From: Oscillospiraceae bacterium
GTDB lineage: Bacteria > Bacillota > Clostridia > Oscillospirales > Oscillospiraceae
NCBI GenBank assembly: GCA_017406005.1
Contig: JAFQZI010000014.1
Span: 1 to 64,000, forward strand
DNA: 64,000 nucleotides
Direction: 5' to 3'
Made by a program: the position numbers and the translations under genes. The first letter of the stretch is position 1; each line of letters begins with the position of its first letter. This document shows, in pieces, positions 12,874 to 41,919 of the stretch. The notes beneath the pieces are model-generated. The model saw nothing but the letters and a program-made list of their open reading frames with translations. It did no database searches and had not been told where the DNA came from.

Positions 12874-13563
12874 ATGGTAAAGAAAAAATGGTGGATACTC
12901 CCCGCAATCCTGCTTCTAATCCTCGTCATAGCGTTTTTTGTTTTCGTTGCCGATTACTATCACGCAACCGACACAGCGATAAAAGCGCTGGAATCAGATA
13001 ACGTTTTGATCAAACAAACAGAATACGGCTGGTTTTTCGACGGACCATCTTCTGACAGAGCGCTTATCTTTTATCCGGGGGCAAAAGTAGAAGAAACGGC
13101 CTACGCGCCTCTGCTACACAGACTCTCGGATAGCGATATCGATGTTTGCCTTGTGAAAATGCCTTTTCATATGGCGTTATTCGGCAAGAATACTGCGAGC
13201 AGGATCATGAAGCAGTATGAATATAAGCAATGGTACATCGGCGGGCACTCACTTGGCGGAGCCGTTGCAGCGAATTATGCCGCTGCACACGATCTGGACG
13301 GCGTTATATTACTTGCAGCGTTTCCGACCAAAGACGTGGATGAACCGATGCTGCTTATATACGGTTCGGAAGACGGAGTTTTGAATCAGGAACGAGTTGC
13401 TGCCGCAGATCGATTTGGAACGGTCAAAGAAATAGTGATTGACGGCGGAAACCATGCAGGCTTCGGCGAATACGGAGAACAGGCAGGGGATAACCCTGCG
13501 GATATATCCACAGAGGAACAGATACAGATAACCGTCGATGCAATTTCAAAGTGGCTTTCCTGA
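12874..13563 (+). CDS. Membrane-anchored alpha/beta hydrolase
   Basis: A 229-residue protein with an N-terminal membrane anchor (WWILPAILLLILVIAFFVFV) and an alpha/beta-hydrolase domain of the short Abhydrolase_5 type. IGGHSLGG carries the nucleophile serine, the aspartate is in LLIYGSEDGVL, and the histidine in IDGGNHAGFG. The domain likely faces outside as a carboxylesterase or lipase-like enzyme. The ribosome binding site is weak. It is convergent with the DUF362 gene. Confidence 0.82.
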   Translation: MVKKKWWILPAILLLILVIAFFVFVADYYHATDTAIKALESDNVLIKQTEYGWFFDGPSSDRALIFYPGAKVEETAYAPLLHRLSDSDIDVCLVKMPFHMALFGKNTASRIMKQYEYKQWYIGGHSLGGAVAANYAAAHDLDGVILLAAFPTKDVDEPMLLIYGSEDGVLNQERVAAADRFGTVKEIVIDGGNHAGFGEYGEQAGDNPADISTEEQIQITVDAISKWLS

Positions 13564-13578
13564 ACAGGAAAAGTTTTC

Positions 13579-14745
13579 TTATTTCCAATAACCGGCGGTG
13601 ATCGCCTTTTGCGGGCACATCTCCTGGCAGCAGAAGCAGCGGATGCATTTTTTGCGGTCGTATACGGGGGGATGATCTTTCCCATTCCGGAAGGACAGCG
13701 CTTTGCCCGGCACAGGACAGTGGGAAACACAGATCCCGCAGTGGATGCAACGTTCCGCATGAATCACGGGGCGCCGGGAGAAGCGGGCCAGCACGGACAG
13801 TGAACGAACCAGCAAATCCGTCTTTTTCCGGTCTACCTCAAAATCCGGATCTCCGAAGGTATCCGCAAAGACATCGAGCGGCATAGGATCGGCGTAAGCA
13901 TCATCACCGGGCGTTGCCAACAGGAGTTCGATACGTTCGGCATGCCAGGTACCAAGACCCATGGCCTCTCCCTGCACATTGGTCTGGACGGTCTCCGGAT
14001 CCATATGAATCAGCGCACAGAACACAGCATCCAGGGCGACGGGATCGATGGAAAACAGCAGCAGACCCATCGGCTTAGGAGTTCCGGCACCGGGGCCGTT
14101 CCCTTCCATGGCGACAACTGCATCCATGATATGCAGACGCGGTTTTACACAGCGGTGGATATCCACGAGCATCCTGGCAAATACCCCGTCGTTAGGGAAT
14201 TTCAAGTGTTCCCGAGCTTTACGCGTACCACATAACAGGCCGAAGAGATTTTTCACGGCACCGGTCACACGCATCATTGCGTGTGTTTTCATTTTGCAGA
14301 CATTGATAATGGCATCGGCTTCGGTGACCTCCCTTGCAAACCAGAATTCCTTCTCTGTCATACCTTCCGGAAAATCGACCCGAACTTCTTCTGACATGGG
14401 AGCGAGACAAGCGCCGAAGACCGGTTCATCCGAACGGAAGCCGAGACGTTCCAAAGCATGGGTGCCGGTGTCGTGCCCGGGAGAGTCTCCGAAGCGCACG
14501 GATGTGCAACCATATTCCTTCAGAAGCCGAAGCACTGCTCGCAGAACAGAGGGGTGCGTAGTGACTGCGCTGTCCGCCTCGGCGGGCTTGAGGAGATTCG
14601 GCTTGACCAGGACCCGCTCCTCCGGGCGAAGAAAGCTTTCGAGACCGCCGAGAGCACGGATCCCGGTGCGGACAGCTTCATAAACCTTTTCCGGTTCATA
14701 GTCACTGCAGGGTACCGCAATGACCCTGGATTTCTTTTCTGTCAT
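13579..14745 (-). CDS. DUF362 protein with C-terminal 2x[4Fe-4S] ferredoxin domain
   Basis: A 388-residue protein. Residues 30-310 are the DUF362 domain, with VLVKPNLLKPAEADSAVTTH, the GDSPGHDT segment, INVCKMKTH and GAVKNLFGLL. The C-terminus has two ferredoxin clusters, CIHCGICVSHC and CIRCFCCQEMC, each with a following Cys-Pro. These proteins occur in strict anaerobes as electron carriers of unknown partner. GGGAGGAA precedes the ATG. The MBL gene lies 45 bases upstream on the same strand, so they form an operon. Confidence 0.88.
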   Translation of the reverse strand: MTEKKSRVIAVPCSDYEPEKVYEAVRTGIRALGGLESFLRPEERVLVKPNLLKPAEADSAVTTHPSVLRAVLRLLKEYGCTSVRFGDSPGHDTGTHALERLGFRSDEPVFGACLAPMSEEVRVDFPEGMTEKEFWFAREVTEADAIINVCKMKTHAMMRVTGAVKNLFGLLCGTRKAREHLKFPNDGVFARMLVDIHRCVKPRLHIMDAVVAMEGNGPGAGTPKPMGLLLFSIDPVALDAVFCALIHMDPETVQTNVQGEAMGLGTWHAERIELLLATPGDDAYADPMPLDVFADTFGDPDFEVDRKKTDLLVRSLSVLARFSRRPVIHAERCIHCGICVSHCPVPGKALSFRNGKDHPPVYDRKKCIRCFCCQEMCPQKAITAGYWK

Positions 14746-34212: not shown

Positions 34213-34259
34213 CTTTTTCAGGAAGTACCTTGTGATTGGACAGTATCAATGATATATTA
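34213..34259 (+). promoter_or_regulatory. Conserved promoter module, copy 1 (HNH gene)
   Basis: TTGTGA (34230-34235) and TATATT (34253-34258) are 17 bases apart, and a 17-base element CTTTTTCAGGAAGTACC lies just upstream. The 47-base block matches 42 of 47 bases of the block at 37523-37569, which is the promoter of a different gene. Confidence 0.72.
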
Positions 34260-34298
34260 AGAGCGAACCCATTCATCACGATAATACTGGAGGAGAAT

Positions 34299-35258
34299 GT
34301 GCCAGAATACCGCTATAAAATCATAAACGGGAAGCGAATACCGGAGCACCGGGCGGTTATAGAAGAACTGCTCGGCATTACGCTGAGAGAAGACCAGGTG
34401 GTGCACCATATCAACGGGATCAAAACGGACAACCGGCCGGACAATCTGCAGGTGATGAACAGGAAAGAGCACTCCCGCCTGCATGCTTCAGCTATGCCTC
34501 AAACCCCGGAAAAGATCCGGAAAGTCAGTGAGGCGCGAAAGGGCAAGAGCAACCCGGAGGCAAGAGCGCTGACAGCCGAACAGGTGGAGAATGTTGTAAA
34601 GGCGCTGCACGAGGGAGTATCCGTCACATCGCTTGCAAGGGAGCTCAGGGTTTCTGACCATGTGATCCGCAATATTCGGGATGGAAAAACCTATCAGGAT
34701 GTACTGGCGACACTGCCGAAAGAGTACTTCCCCCTGCCGGGTGCGAAGAAAAGAAAAATGTCTGCCAACGGAAAAAGGAAAGTCGACGTGGCAGAGCTGA
34801 ACATTATCCGACTGGAATTGCTGGGAGGCAGATCCATCGCGTCGATTGCAAAGGAGCACCATCTTGCACAGGAGACCGTGCGGAAGATCAATTTGCGGGA
34901 GAGCTATAACGATATCCCCTGGCCGGAAGAACTGGCAAGGTATGAAGCCCTCAATGATATGAGACAACTGGCAGACATCATGCTGCAGGGACCAATGCCG
35001 GAGGAAGATGACGGATTCGTCTTCACGGAGGAAGATATCCAGGCACTGACCGGAGAAAAGGTGGATAGGATCCTGATAGAGAAATACGGACTCTACCCCA
35101 CTTACCATGCAAGGCTGGTGTATCTGATGATGCGCCGGGCACTGGCAGGAGACAGGACGATGCTGTTTGCGCTCTTTTCCATCAGCAGCTATGACGAACT
35201 GGTGCCGCAAATCCTTGCTGAGAATTCGAAGGCATGGAAAGGGCAGACAGAGAAGTGA
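34299..35258 (+). CDS. HNH endonuclease with two HTH modules (homing-endonuclease-like)
   Basis: A 319-residue protein. The HNH core is VVHHINGIKTDNRPDNLQ followed by EHSRLHA, the His-Asn-His fold of phage and homing nucleases. Two similar modules follow, VSVTSLARELRVSDHVIRNI-type with GKTYQDV, and RSIASIAKEHHLAQETVRKI-type ending RESYNDI, resembling the IENR/NUMOD HTH repeats that read DNA. A GTG at 34299 with GGAGGAG upstream is chosen, because a TTG at 34236 would lie inside the promoter. It is not inside another gene, so it is a free-standing element. Confidence 0.75.
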   Translation: MPEYRYKIINGKRIPEHRAVIEELLGITLREDQVVHHINGIKTDNRPDNLQVMNRKEHSRLHASAMPQTPEKIRKVSEARKGKSNPEARALTAEQVENVVKALHEGVSVTSLARELRVSDHVIRNIRDGKTYQDVLATLPKEYFPLPGAKKRKMSANGKRKVDVAELNIIRLELLGGRSIASIAKEHHLAQETVRKINLRESYNDIPWPEELARYEALNDMRQLADIMLQGPMPEEDDGFVFTEEDIQALTGEKVDRILIEKYGLYPTYHARLVYLMMRRALAGDRTMLFALFSISSYDELVPQILAENSKAWKGQTEK

Positions 35259-36609: not shown

Positions 36610-36713
36610 CTGTGATAAGTGCGGTGATACAATGCGCCCGTCAAAACAAAAGACGAGAAAGATCATACATAATCATAAAAAAATAAAAACGATTTTCGAA
36701 GGAGGATTATAAA

Positions 36714-37442
36714 ATGAGTGATCTTGCAATGTTTATGAATGAAGTCAGAGCTGACGAATCTTTAGGAAATCAGCTCAGGAATGCATTGGAAAATGCCAGT
36801 GTCCTTGAAAGGGCAGAAAAGTTCATTGCCCTCGCGAAGGAGCGTGGCTTCCAGGTTTCAGAAGTGGAGCTGTTTCGGTTCTTAGAGAAGAGAGAGGCTG
36901 ACAAATGCGATGCTCTCCCGGAAGACGCACTGGCAAACGTCGTCGGTGGAGGTGGAGGAATCAAAGACACCTCAGACAAGGAATGGTGGGAGTACGGGGT
37001 TGAAGCACTGGATGCCGTCTTAAAAGGCCTCGGACACTGCTTCAGCGGAGACAGCCTGGTGTCCACACCATCCGGCACGAAGGCGATCAGGGATGTCAAG
37101 CCCGGTGATGAAGTTATTTCTGTGGATCAGGACGGCAATCAGAGAGTCGCGAAGGTGACCGATGTCATAGAGCCGTATGAAATGCCGATTGTGGAAGTCA
37201 CATTCTCCGACGGGCACAAATGGAACACCACGACTACGCAGTGGTACTACTGCGGAGGTGACGAATATGCCAGCGTGATGGATGACCAGGGAAAGACAGC
37301 ACTGACACTGGATGGCGGAAAAGCGGGTGTTCGCAGCGTCGTGGAGACTGAGCGCAACGAACCAGTCTATGATTTTGTTGTGGAAGGGCTGAATGTCATG
37401 TTCGTTGACGGCGTCGCTGCGGAAGGCTTCAGCCTGAGTTGA
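36714..37442 (+). CDS. Nif11-type leader, GG motif and Hint-like domain protein
   Basis: A 242-residue fusion. Residues 1-60 match the Nif11 RiPP-leader family (start MSDLAMFMNEVRADESLGNQ). Residues 70-80, DALANVVGGG, form a double-glycine-type cleavage site. Residues 109-235 form a Hint-like domain starting CFSGDSLVSTPSGTKAI with KPGDEVISV and ending VEGLNVMFVDGVAAEGF. The catalytic-like Cys109 is present, but block B reads TTTQ instead of T-x-x-H and no terminal His-Asn exists. The 28 residues between GGG and Cys109 are the presumed released peptide. Transport and maturation genes are not in the window. Confidence 0.72.
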   Translation: MSDLAMFMNEVRADESLGNQLRNALENASVLERAEKFIALAKERGFQVSEVELFRFLEKREADKCDALPEDALANVVGGGGGIKDTSDKEWWEYGVEALDAVLKGLGHCFSGDSLVSTPSGTKAIRDVKPGDEVISVDQDGNQRVAKVTDVIEPYEMPIVEVTFSDGHKWNTTTTQWYYCGGDEYASVMDDQGKTALTLDGGKAGVRSVVETERNEPVYDFVVEGLNVMFVDGVAAEGFSLS

Positions 37443-37488
37443 AATGACAGTGAAAACAAAACCCTCAGGTGAAAATGGATTATAATAG

Positions 37489-37516
37489 AAAAGCAGGCTG
37501 AAAAAGGCCTGCTTTT
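37489..37516 (+). terminator. Terminator after the Nif11-Hint gene
   Basis: AAAAGCAGGC and GCCTGCTTTT pair around TGAAAAAG. The arms resemble those at 35414-35439. The second promoter module begins 6 bases after it. Confidence 0.78.
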
Positions 37517-37522
37517 CGCTGT

Positions 37523-37569
37523 CTTTTTCAGGAAGTACCTTGAGATTGAAAAACATCAATGATATATTA
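37523..37569 (+). promoter_or_regulatory. Conserved promoter module, copy 2 (secreted protein gene)
   Basis: TTGAGA (37540-37545) and TATATT (37563-37568) are 17 bases apart, with CTTTTTCAGGAAGTACC upstream as in copy 1 at 34213-34259 (42 of 47 bases identical). Confidence 0.75.
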
Positions 37570-37604
37570 TGAGAAAACGGGTAAATGAACTTCAGGAGGA
37601 TTCT

Positions 37605-38795
37605 ATGAAGAAGTACCTGGCAATCATAATATCTCTGGCGATGGTTTTCAGCTTAAGTGTATTTGCAGCAGCGGAAGAGGAGCCGGGGGCAGCAGTTGAA
37701 GCGTCTGCAGCAGCAGAAACTGAGGTGGCTGTTGAAGACCCTGTCGAGGTGGAAGAATCGGAGACAGCTGAGGATGTTCCTTCTGCTGAAGAAGATCCTG
37801 CAGAAAACAGCGAAGAAGACTCTGCGGAAAACGGGGAAGAAGCTGCTGCAGAAGAAGAGCCGGAAGGACCGATAGAAATATCTACTGCAGAGGAACTGAG
37901 GGAAATAGCAGATAAGCTCACGGCAGACTATGTGCTCACAGCCGATATCGACCTTGCGGGAAAGGAATGGGTTCCGCTGGGGACATATATTCCTTCCAGG
38001 GAGAATGTAGAAGAACAGGAGGTACCTTCCTCCCGATATGCTTTTACAGGAACCTTTGACGGAAACGGCCATACGATTTCCAACCTGGTGATCCAGCAGC
38101 CGGAGTGGGTTGCGCTTGGGCTTTTCGGATGCATCTCCAATGCATCGGTCGGGAACTTTACGCTTGAAAATGCCACGGTGGACGGCACGGTAATGGCTGC
38201 AGATGTGATAGGCTATTCTTTCAATTCCGAGGTTTATAACATAACACTCACCAACGGCAGCGTGACAGCCCACGCCTCCGAAATCAGCAACGAGGGAATG
38301 ATCGGAGGAATCGTCGGTGCGGGACTGAACAGCCGGATCATCGGATGCAGTGCGCAGGCAGATATCATTATCCCAGACGGAAGCACGAATGCGGGGATTA
38401 TTGGCGGCGGGCTGGAAGCGACCTCCGTAGTTGACTGCACAGTGACGGGAAGCGTAACCGCCGGAGACAATTGCTGCGGGATCGGCGGGATTTCCGGATG
38501 CGGTTTCGGGGCAGAGGAATTCACCAACTGCAAAGCGGCCGATGTTGTGCTCAAGGTTGGAAGATACGCCAAGTGGATCGGGAGCATCACCGGTTATGCG
38601 GGAGGTTATGAAGAGCAGGAATTCGACACACCGGTAACCGTGTTTACCGACTGCGCGGCAGAACGAGTGACCATTATCAGAGCTGCGACAGAGGAAGACC
38701 TTGTCGGTGGCGCATATTACAGTGAAGAAGCGGAAGCAGATTACGGAGCTCCGTATGACAGACCAACCGTTTATATCATTCAGGGCGAACAATGA
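37605..38795 (+). CDS. Secreted acidic protein with GLUG-like beta-helix repeats
   Basis: A 396-residue secreted protein. Residues 1-23 are a signal peptide (KKYLAIIISLAMVFSLSVFA), followed by about 65 residues of Glu/Ala/Asp/Pro low-complexity sequence. From residue 90, ISTAEELREIADKLTADYV opens a right-handed beta-helix with GTFDGNGHTISNL, then repeats of the GLUG type such as GIVGAGLNSRIIGCSA and GGISGCGFGAEEFTNC. No LPxTG or other anchor is seen. AGGAGG precedes the ATG at 37605. The layout suggests an extracellular adhesin or surface protein of unknown partner. Confidence 0.75.
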   Translation: MKKYLAIIISLAMVFSLSVFAAAEEEPGAAVEASAAAETEVAVEDPVEVEESETAEDVPSAEEDPAENSEEDSAENGEEAAAEEEPEGPIEISTAEELREIADKLTADYVLTADIDLAGKEWVPLGTYIPSRENVEEQEVPSSRYAFTGTFDGNGHTISNLVIQQPEWVALGLFGCISNASVGNFTLENATVDGTVMAADVIGYSFNSEVYNITLTNGSVTAHASEISNEGMIGGIVGAGLNSRIIGCSAQADIIIPDGSTNAGIIGGGLEATSVVDCTVTGSVTAGDNCCGIGGISGCGFGAEEFTNCKAADVVLKVGRYAKWIGSITGYAGGYEEQEFDTPVTVFTDCAAERVTIIRAATEEDLVGGAYYSEEAEADYGAPYDRPTVYIIQGEQ

Positions 38796-41696: not shown

Positions 41697-41919
41697 GGAG
41701 CACACTCCTTGAATGAGTATTTTGGATTCGGTCACGTTGTAATTGGTGCGAAGCAAGCTCCTCGCGAAGGCAACATTAACCCTCGAGGTCAGTGCTCCGT
41801 CGCGAGTTATAAAATGATTAGGATTAATTGCTATTCTATCGTAGGGAAAACGGGCGTACAAGAGGGGTGAAGACAGCAGCCTTTCCTTTTTTGAATGGTT
41901 ATCATACGAAAAACATGCG

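Follow-up and report, generated by a model that had tools for sequence, protein, structure and literature searches.

The window, that is the whole stretch of DNA analysed here, comprises 64,000 nucleotides (positions 1 to 64,000 of contig JAFQZI010000014.1, forward strand) from an Oscillospiraceae bacterium (GCA_017406005.1). It holds a gene for a protein in which a Nif11-type leader, a double-glycine site, a short insert and a Hint-fold domain follow each other. The features of the gene and its product are listed by position in the window.

36700..36705, + strand: Shine-Dalgarno sequence AGGAGG, read directly, with the ATG 8 nt downstream
36714..37442, + strand: coding sequence of the Nif11-GG-insert-Hint protein, 242 amino acids, without internal stop
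36714..36950, + strand: Nif11-type leader, residues 1-79, from the TIGR03798 and Pfam Nif11 matches
36945..36950, + strand: double-glycine site Gly78-Gly79, opening a run of five glycines (78-82)
36951..37037, + strand: insert or putative payload, residues 80-108 (29 amino acids), amphipathic by its hydrophobic moment, KEWWEYGVEALDAVLKGL
37038..37439, + strand: Q-type Hint domain, residues 109-242, from near-cut-off Pfam scores, alignment and a profile match
37038..37040, + strand: codon TGC of Cys109, the Hint Cys1 (block A:1), Cys in 32 of 33 Q-type Hints
37230..37241, + strand: Thr173-x-x-Gln176, the block-B TxxH with Gln replacing His (Thr in 33/33, Gln in 30/33)
37371..37373, + strand: Asp220, probable block F:4 (Asp in 29/33)
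37422..37427, + strand: Glu237-Gly238 where the terminal His-Asn is expected (238 is Gly in 33/33, 237 is His in 0/33)
37488..37517, + strand: terminator hairpin followed by a T-rich tail, folding z-score -4.5

With a Shine-Dalgarno sequence before it and a terminator hairpin after it, the fusion gene looks monocistronic, a single-gene unit. The protein ends four residues past Glu-Gly and nothing lies C-terminal of the Hint domain. Just 3' of the terminator lies a gene (37569-38795) whose product is putatively secreted and carries a GLUG motif (21.7 over 20.5). The product of positions 34236-35258 resembles a free-standing homing-type endonuclease, with an HNH_3 domain (37.9 over 24.8) and helix-turn-helix matches. 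Positions 41720-41824 are a dispersed intergenic repeat, short stretches of which (about 46-93 nt, 75-85%) match 16 further contigs of this genome; Rfam gave nothing above the gathering score in the window, this repeat included. An origin of the contig as a Selenomonas contaminant was rejected, because a 5.8-kb stretch of it matches all nine other genomes tested of the window's genus and none of four Selenomonadaceae. The best identities in the genus are 69-77%, over parts of the stretch.

The Nif11 type of the leader is supported by two profiles. The NCBIfam model TIGR03798 scores 32.6 against a cut-off of 32.3, aligning residues 1-79 with profile positions 3-68 of 68 and ending at the double glycine, and Pfam Nif11 (PF07862) scores 29.7 bits over 23.8 for residues 3-53. 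The preliminary description was thus right about the leader type and the double-glycine site. Its extent for the leader, residues 1-60, is too short, since the TIGR03798 match covers 1-79 up to the GG. Two relatives fall under the TIGR03798 cut-off (L054 with 23.9 and L076 with 30.1), and L054 lies above that of Pfam Nif11 (28.9 over 23.8). For the C-terminal part the window protein stays just below the Pfam cut-offs for Hint (27.5/29.7), PT-HINT (26.6/27.7, residues 115-237) and Hint_2 (26.3/28.4). Hint_2 (PF13403) is the best Pfam match of the relatives L031 (45.9) and L054 (42.3), both above its cut-off of 28.4, and a profile of nine of the Hint domains matched among solved structures the intein-like domain 2lwy (E 6.9e-13, 125 of 137 positions), as well as inteins and hedgehog 1at0. 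HMM support for a Hint domain beginning at Cys109 therefore exists, as had been proposed, and by these alignments residues 109-242 are a complete Hint-fold domain. The earlier observations of Gln at the block-B His and of a missing terminal His-Asn hold, and the protein lacks the block-F His as well; the guess of a non-canonical chemistry fits these three losses.

The relatives were not found with the window protein alone. As a query it gave no close relative in genome_contigs or viral_contigs; a single-protein search of 99 genomes returned only the window itself, with none in 60 other genomes of its genus, and a Hint_2 search of the 60 other genomes of the genus gave no close relative either. 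A plasmid match was obtained to the last 147 residues of a 5,140-residue protein of Selenomonas ruminantium TAM6421, annotated as an LktA-family adhesin, which are 43% identical to the window Hint. A two-sequence Hint profile matched 9 of 398 genomes of the phylum, the window's included. In the order it matched 11 of 394 genomes besides the window, where the frames read, those of L038 and L043 not among them, had a canonical TxxH. One of the genomes matched in the phylum, that of Anaerovibrio sp. RM50 (G850), contains a second fusion, a 254-residue Nif11-VAGGG-insert-Hint protein that is 41% identical overall to the window protein. At E<=0.001 the profile of these two fusions matched 52 of the 189 genomes of the Anaerovibrio family; in 31 of the 52 the match covered the leader alone.

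Thirteen intact fusions are present in this family (G850, G1024, G1030, G1032, G970, G957, G1017, G1009, G1011, G1013, G1008, G1012 and G1015). The named fusion loci are an uncultured Selenomonadaceae MAG from reindeer (G970), Anaerovibrio sp. RM50 (G850) and three Selenomonas ruminantium MAGs (G1030, G1032 and G1031); as they belong to the Selenomonadaceae, the family is referred to by that name. One further intact fusion occurs in G1241, a member of another family in which 1 of 59 genomes, G1241 itself, was matched. Together with the window this gives 15 intact fusions in three bacterial families. Four of the 19 fusion loci are broken or partial, by a stop in G1031, a frame break in G982, a stop in the leader in G1003 and as a fragment in G900. 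A plasmid search with a type-B fusion, as defined below, returned only the Selenomonas adhesin and one distant match annotated as RHS. The double glycine is found in 14 of the 15 intact fusions, with Ala-Gly in G957 as the exception, and Cys1 likewise in 14, the exception being G1024 with Tyr (TAC where its relatives have TGC). Both sites are thus conserved in homologs. Relatives with the same architecture rule out a chance fusion, and by these sequences the Nif11-insert-Hint arrangement is a conserved design with relatives in rumen bacteria.

The altered Hint domains share a signature, here called Q-type. It was scored in 33 domains, namely 17 from Nif11 fusions (two of them broken), 2 identical adhesin rows and 14 from phage-type proteins; near-copies are included and the domains are not independent events. 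Left out were G982 (in two pieces), G900 (a 52-residue frame with the Hint end only), a G522 adhesin copy with an in-frame stop, L217, some further near-copies and a weak match in G935. With block residues named after PMC4031507, Cys1 is found in 32/33, Thr B:7 in 33/33 and Asp at the F:4 position in 29/33. Position B:10 is never His; 30 domains have Gln there and 3 have Glu. All 33 lack the block-F His and have Gly in place of the terminal Asn. The residue before Cys1 (-1) is other than Gly, Ala or Ser in 24 domains, and 15 alignment columns have a single residue in at least 90% of the 33. The block-B and block-F His were each present in 11 of 11 canonical Hints aligned, cut from 13 loci by a pattern that held Cys1 and the terminal HN, not the block-B His. 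With the block-B His, the block-F His and the terminal Asn lost, splicing and C-terminal cleavage are unlikely in the Q-type.

Outside the leader proteins a Q-type Hint forms the C-terminal end of the 5,140-residue Selenomonas adhesin and of the phage-type proteins. Twelve of the 14 phage-type proteins have a homologous N-terminal part, and L216 and L221 matched none of the others. Two lie on IMG/VR contigs (L083, in the form of its identical copy L144, and L145), and L145 is two genes away from a tail gene. The phage-type proteins with a C-terminal Q-type Hint (L144, L145, L212-L223 and L058) include three members with Glu at B:10. The type-B and adhesin Hints are 68% identical. In the phylogenetic tree the fusions and the adhesins together form a clade (100/98) that lies among the phage-type Q-Hints and in which the adhesins group with type B (100/100); the inside of this clade is without resolution and the root and the long branches are unsure. 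The Hint of the fusions was probably acquired from a phage protein, and a path from phage protein to leader protein to adhesin is inferred.

The segment between the double glycine and Cys1 varies in length and kind. The fusions were labelled type A and type B in this analysis, the window belonging to type A. In type B (genus g443 and G1241) the segment has about 20-27 residues, for example SCYTNMTCDGNECNPAHPH, lies immediately N-terminal of Cys1 and has the appearance of a Cys-rich, RiPP-like core placed exactly between GG and Cys1, which fits the idea of a payload between two processing sites. Nif11 peptides that stand alone are also numerous in the g443 genomes; they have leaders of very similar sequence and short cores, among them SCYTECPLDGPM and ICYMEDCPKHTMAD. 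A motif C-[YW]-x2-6-C, picked after the sequences were read, stands just after GG in 5/5 distinct fused cores and in 15/36 stand-alone ones, compared with shuffle means of 0.1 and 0.9. The type-A inserts are Cys-poor, without any Cys in the window, and have about 13-63 residues. Amphipathy was tested on four of them only: three were higher than their shuffles (p 0.0045 for the window, where 0.45% of shuffles reach the hydrophobic moment of KEWWEYGVEALDAVLKGL, 0.0085 and 0.0005) and the fourth gave 0.15.

Other leader proteins were seen in the same material. A large expansion of Nif11 precursors (L103-L109, L125, L129, L132-L139) comprises 36 distinct stand-alone cores, often Cys-rich. Three loci (L124, L130 and L140) have Nif11-like leaders followed by a conserved domain of about 118 residues with GCFLTTAVCEYLGKADDCEELTTLR, and in the window's genus a short protein (L016:1480-1839) carries 14 TGPL-type repeats after a GG site.

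The rates of substitution differ between the modules. By Nei-Gojobori estimates, in which the two most distant pairs are saturated, the Hint domain has a dN/dS of 0.068-0.219 in nine unsaturated pairs. Two of these involve the Tyr1 copy of G1024 (0.068 and 0.081 against two relatives), so that the Hint of this intact copy is still under purifying selection. The insert has a dN/dS of 0.19-0.30, above that of the Hint in all six unsaturated pairs where it is computable; three pairs show no synonymous substitution in the insert. In 3 of 6 type-B pairs the insert dN is lower than the Hint dN. In one of these three, G1011 (L076/L105) against G1012 (L081/L109), leader and core are nearly identical and the Hint is strongly diverged (dS 0 in the core, 1.2 in the Hint), as if leader-core and Hint had been swapped as modules.

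A C39 ABC transporter near the gene formed part of the original proposal. The genome does contain one, its only C39 protein being an NHLM_micro_ABC1 (935.6 over 853.3), on a contig other than that of the window; there is no C39 gene within the window, and no maturase was spotted by eye among its reading frames. On contig C146 of the same genome two small double-glycine-leader proteins (L120:13036-13326 and 13356-13610) adjoin the NHLM transporter genes. The first runs into what we take, from the family name of the matched proteins, to be a LysM-type domain, so that GG leaders in this genome seem to serve folded domains too. Elsewhere an NHLM C39 transporter lies within about 10 kb of a fusion at four loci. 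In G1011 an ABC1/ABC2 pair is found upstream with about 4 kb between (a whole ABC1 with 978.6 over 853.3, ABC2 with 749 over 709.4), and in G1013, G1008 and G1003 ABC1 is about 8, 10 and 5 kb away from the fusion, respectively, that of G1003 being broken. No NHLM ABC1 was present in the regions read near the type-A fusions of Selenomonadaceae. Counted by genome, ABC1 passes the cut-off in 17 of the 18 that have a fusion (a broken one in three of the 18), with G1241 as the exception, and in 11 of 20 without (Fisher p 0.009); the latter are the first listed Selenomonadaceae without a fusion-profile match and mostly of other genera, which confounds the co-occurrence with kinship.

Other Nif11 proteins and a radical SAM protein occur beside some fusions. 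In Anaerovibrio a second Nif11-leader protein lies directly 3' of the fusion. In G1012 (L109) a stand-alone Nif11 peptide comes next after the fusion, and then a radical SAM/SPASM protein (L109:6595-8322) with a SPASM score of 54.5 over 27, below every equivalog cut-off. A frame before the fusion (L109:4671-5597) matches NF041348 below the cut-off (166.5 of 500 bits), and a frame in L122 (6700-7626) starts similarly.

The observations on the fusions (architecture, family, conservation, selection and transporter co-occurrence) are best accommodated if the window protein is a leader-directed export protein with a non-splicing Hint as carrier module, a reading to which we give a probability of about 0.55. 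An NHLM-type C39 ABC transporter would recognise the Nif11 leader, cut after the double glycine, in the window protein after Gly78-Gly79, and move payload and C-terminal Hint out of the cell together. The Q-type Hint, which keeps the fold and the block-B Thr and in most cases also Cys1 and the block-F Asp, would neither splice nor cleave its own C-terminus and would most likely be retained as a folded module at the C-terminus, serving the exported payload as carrier or anchor; a similar carrier role may hold at the ends of the giant adhesin and of the phage-type proteins. This reading is consistent with a Nif11 leader with GG, a full-length Hint fold and 15 intact fusions in three families. 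Against it stand the conservation of Cys1 (32/33) and Asp (29/33), which is more than a pure scaffold should need, the lack of a C39 gene in the window and of ABC1 near the type-A fusions, a fusion without ABC1 in G1241, and the insert that changed less (dN) than the Hint in 3 of 6 type-B pairs.

The same conserved residues raise the question of whether Cys1 acts chemically. In a half reaction like that of hedgehog, the C39 cut at GG would be followed by transfer of the payload onto Cys1 by an N-to-S acyl shift, and the thioester would be resolved by water, another nucleophile or the N-terminus of the payload, so that either a free or a cyclic peptide results; the place of the block-B His would be taken by Gln together with a bulky -1 residue. 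We regard this as possible, although rather unlikely. It would account for Cys1 in 32/33, Thr B:7 in 33/33 and Asp F:4 in 29/33, for type-B cores that lie exactly between GG and Cys1 and resemble stand-alone cores, and for a -1 residue that is not Gly, Ala or Ser in 24/33. Mutants of the Ssp DnaB intein in which bulky -1 residues replaced the block-B His are reported in PMC6333167, and PMC7765530 describes natural inteins without this His as well as B-type BILs that cleave N-terminally without the C-terminal motif. The latter review names natural exceptions for a His that it describes as highly conserved and whose mutation is inactivating; in the Q-type both the block-B and the block-F His are absent in 33/33. 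Moreover, one intact copy has Tyr at Cys1 with its Hint constrained, and the adhesin and phage-type proteins offer no obvious peptide for release. The His losses and the constrained Tyr1 copy are the reasons why a carrier module is preferred here to a release dependent on Cys1. The preliminary description was right about the architecture; the two-step release that it infers, with cleavage or cyclisation at Cys109, is conjectural. A more far-reaching version, which we put forward tentatively and hold doubtful, makes the Q-type Hints a new catalytic class using Cys1, Thr B:7 and Gln B:10 and, in the Nif11 fusions, a built-in C-terminal processing site, the transporter cutting at GG and the Hint releasing, cyclising or covalently attaching the payload at Cys1. 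One precursor would then bear both ends of its own excision.

Two further explanations take the conserved residues either as remnants or as partners in a bond. A decayed Hint may be kept as a stable tail or linker behind an ordinary Nif11 leader that has no export role in the window genome, as could be expected where the window has no C39 gene and no maturase seen by eye and where 4 of 19 loci are broken or partial. A dN/dS of 0.068-0.219 in nine pairs, the 15 alignment columns that are at least 90% uniform across the 33 domains, and GG in 14 of 15 intact fusions argue against such a passenger, and we consider it improbable. An internal thioester between Cys1 and Gln176, as in the thioester domains of surface adhesins, would serve for covalent attachment to a target. 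Gln (30/33) occurs together with Cys (32/33), in known Hint folds Cys1 lies close to the block-B position, and both the adhesin and the phage-type proteins end in a Q-type Hint. The fold of known thioester domains differs from Hint, Gln is replaced by Glu in 3/33 and one domain has Tyr1; such a bond appears very improbable.

Among leader proteins the nearest known systems are the N11P precursors (TIGR03798) with the NHLM transporters (TIGR03796/TIGR03797), with which the fusions have in common the GG leader, large paralogous families and C39 ABC export genes, as described in PMC2887384. The window protein exceeds the TIGR03798 cut-off with a match that ends at GG, in a genome with a C39/NHLM transporter, as a Nif11-type leader precursor does. 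The N11P proteins in that paper are leader and suffix precursors of modified peptides; the window protein adds a complete Hint fold. The main text of this founding Nif11 paper does not contain the words 'hint' or 'intein', and a broad GG protease is described in PMC6363468. Among open-licence full texts no paper was found that joins Nif11 or double-glycine/RiPP leaders with a Hint domain or an intein, or Nif11 with Selenomonas. This is not proof of absence, and the design of Nif11 leader, payload and altered Hint is apparently undescribed.

Among Hint proteins the window protein differs from an intein by Gln for the block-B His and Glu-Gly for His-Asn and by ending four residues on, and from A-type BILs, which have a terminal His-Asn, by Gly at the Asn position in 33/33. 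With B-type BILs, as described in PMC7765530, it has the Hint fold, Cys1 and the lack of a C-terminal intein motif in common. B-type BILs keep all intein motifs except the C-terminal one, whereas the Q-type Hint lacks the block-B and block-F His too, and it occurs in leader proteins, in one type of adhesin and in phage-type proteins; its best solved relative is the bacterial intein-like domain 2lwy. Pfam Hint_2 (PF13403) takes in L031 and L054, and the window protein, with its block-B Gln, stays below (26.3 against 28.4). The PT-HINT or RHS-type Hints have the same fold, but the 11 RHS-type domains aligned retain the His of block B, that of block F and the terminal HN, and most have a further C-terminal part; a PT-HINT polymorphic toxin was rejected, as nothing follows the window Hint that could be a released C-terminal toxin. 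The phage-type C-terminal Hint (part of phrog_21587) has the same Q-type signature, with N-terminal parts other than a leader. Nif11 precursors have so far been known as leaders of short modified peptides, and here their fusion to a complete Hint is recurrent. With the peptide placed exactly between a predicted transporter cut and the nucleophile of the Hint, the fusion represents a testable design of exported peptides that are self-processed or covalently attached. The Q-type signature, present in leader proteins, adhesin and phage-type proteins, marks a subgroup of Hint domains whose chemistry, if any, would bear on the need for the block-B His.
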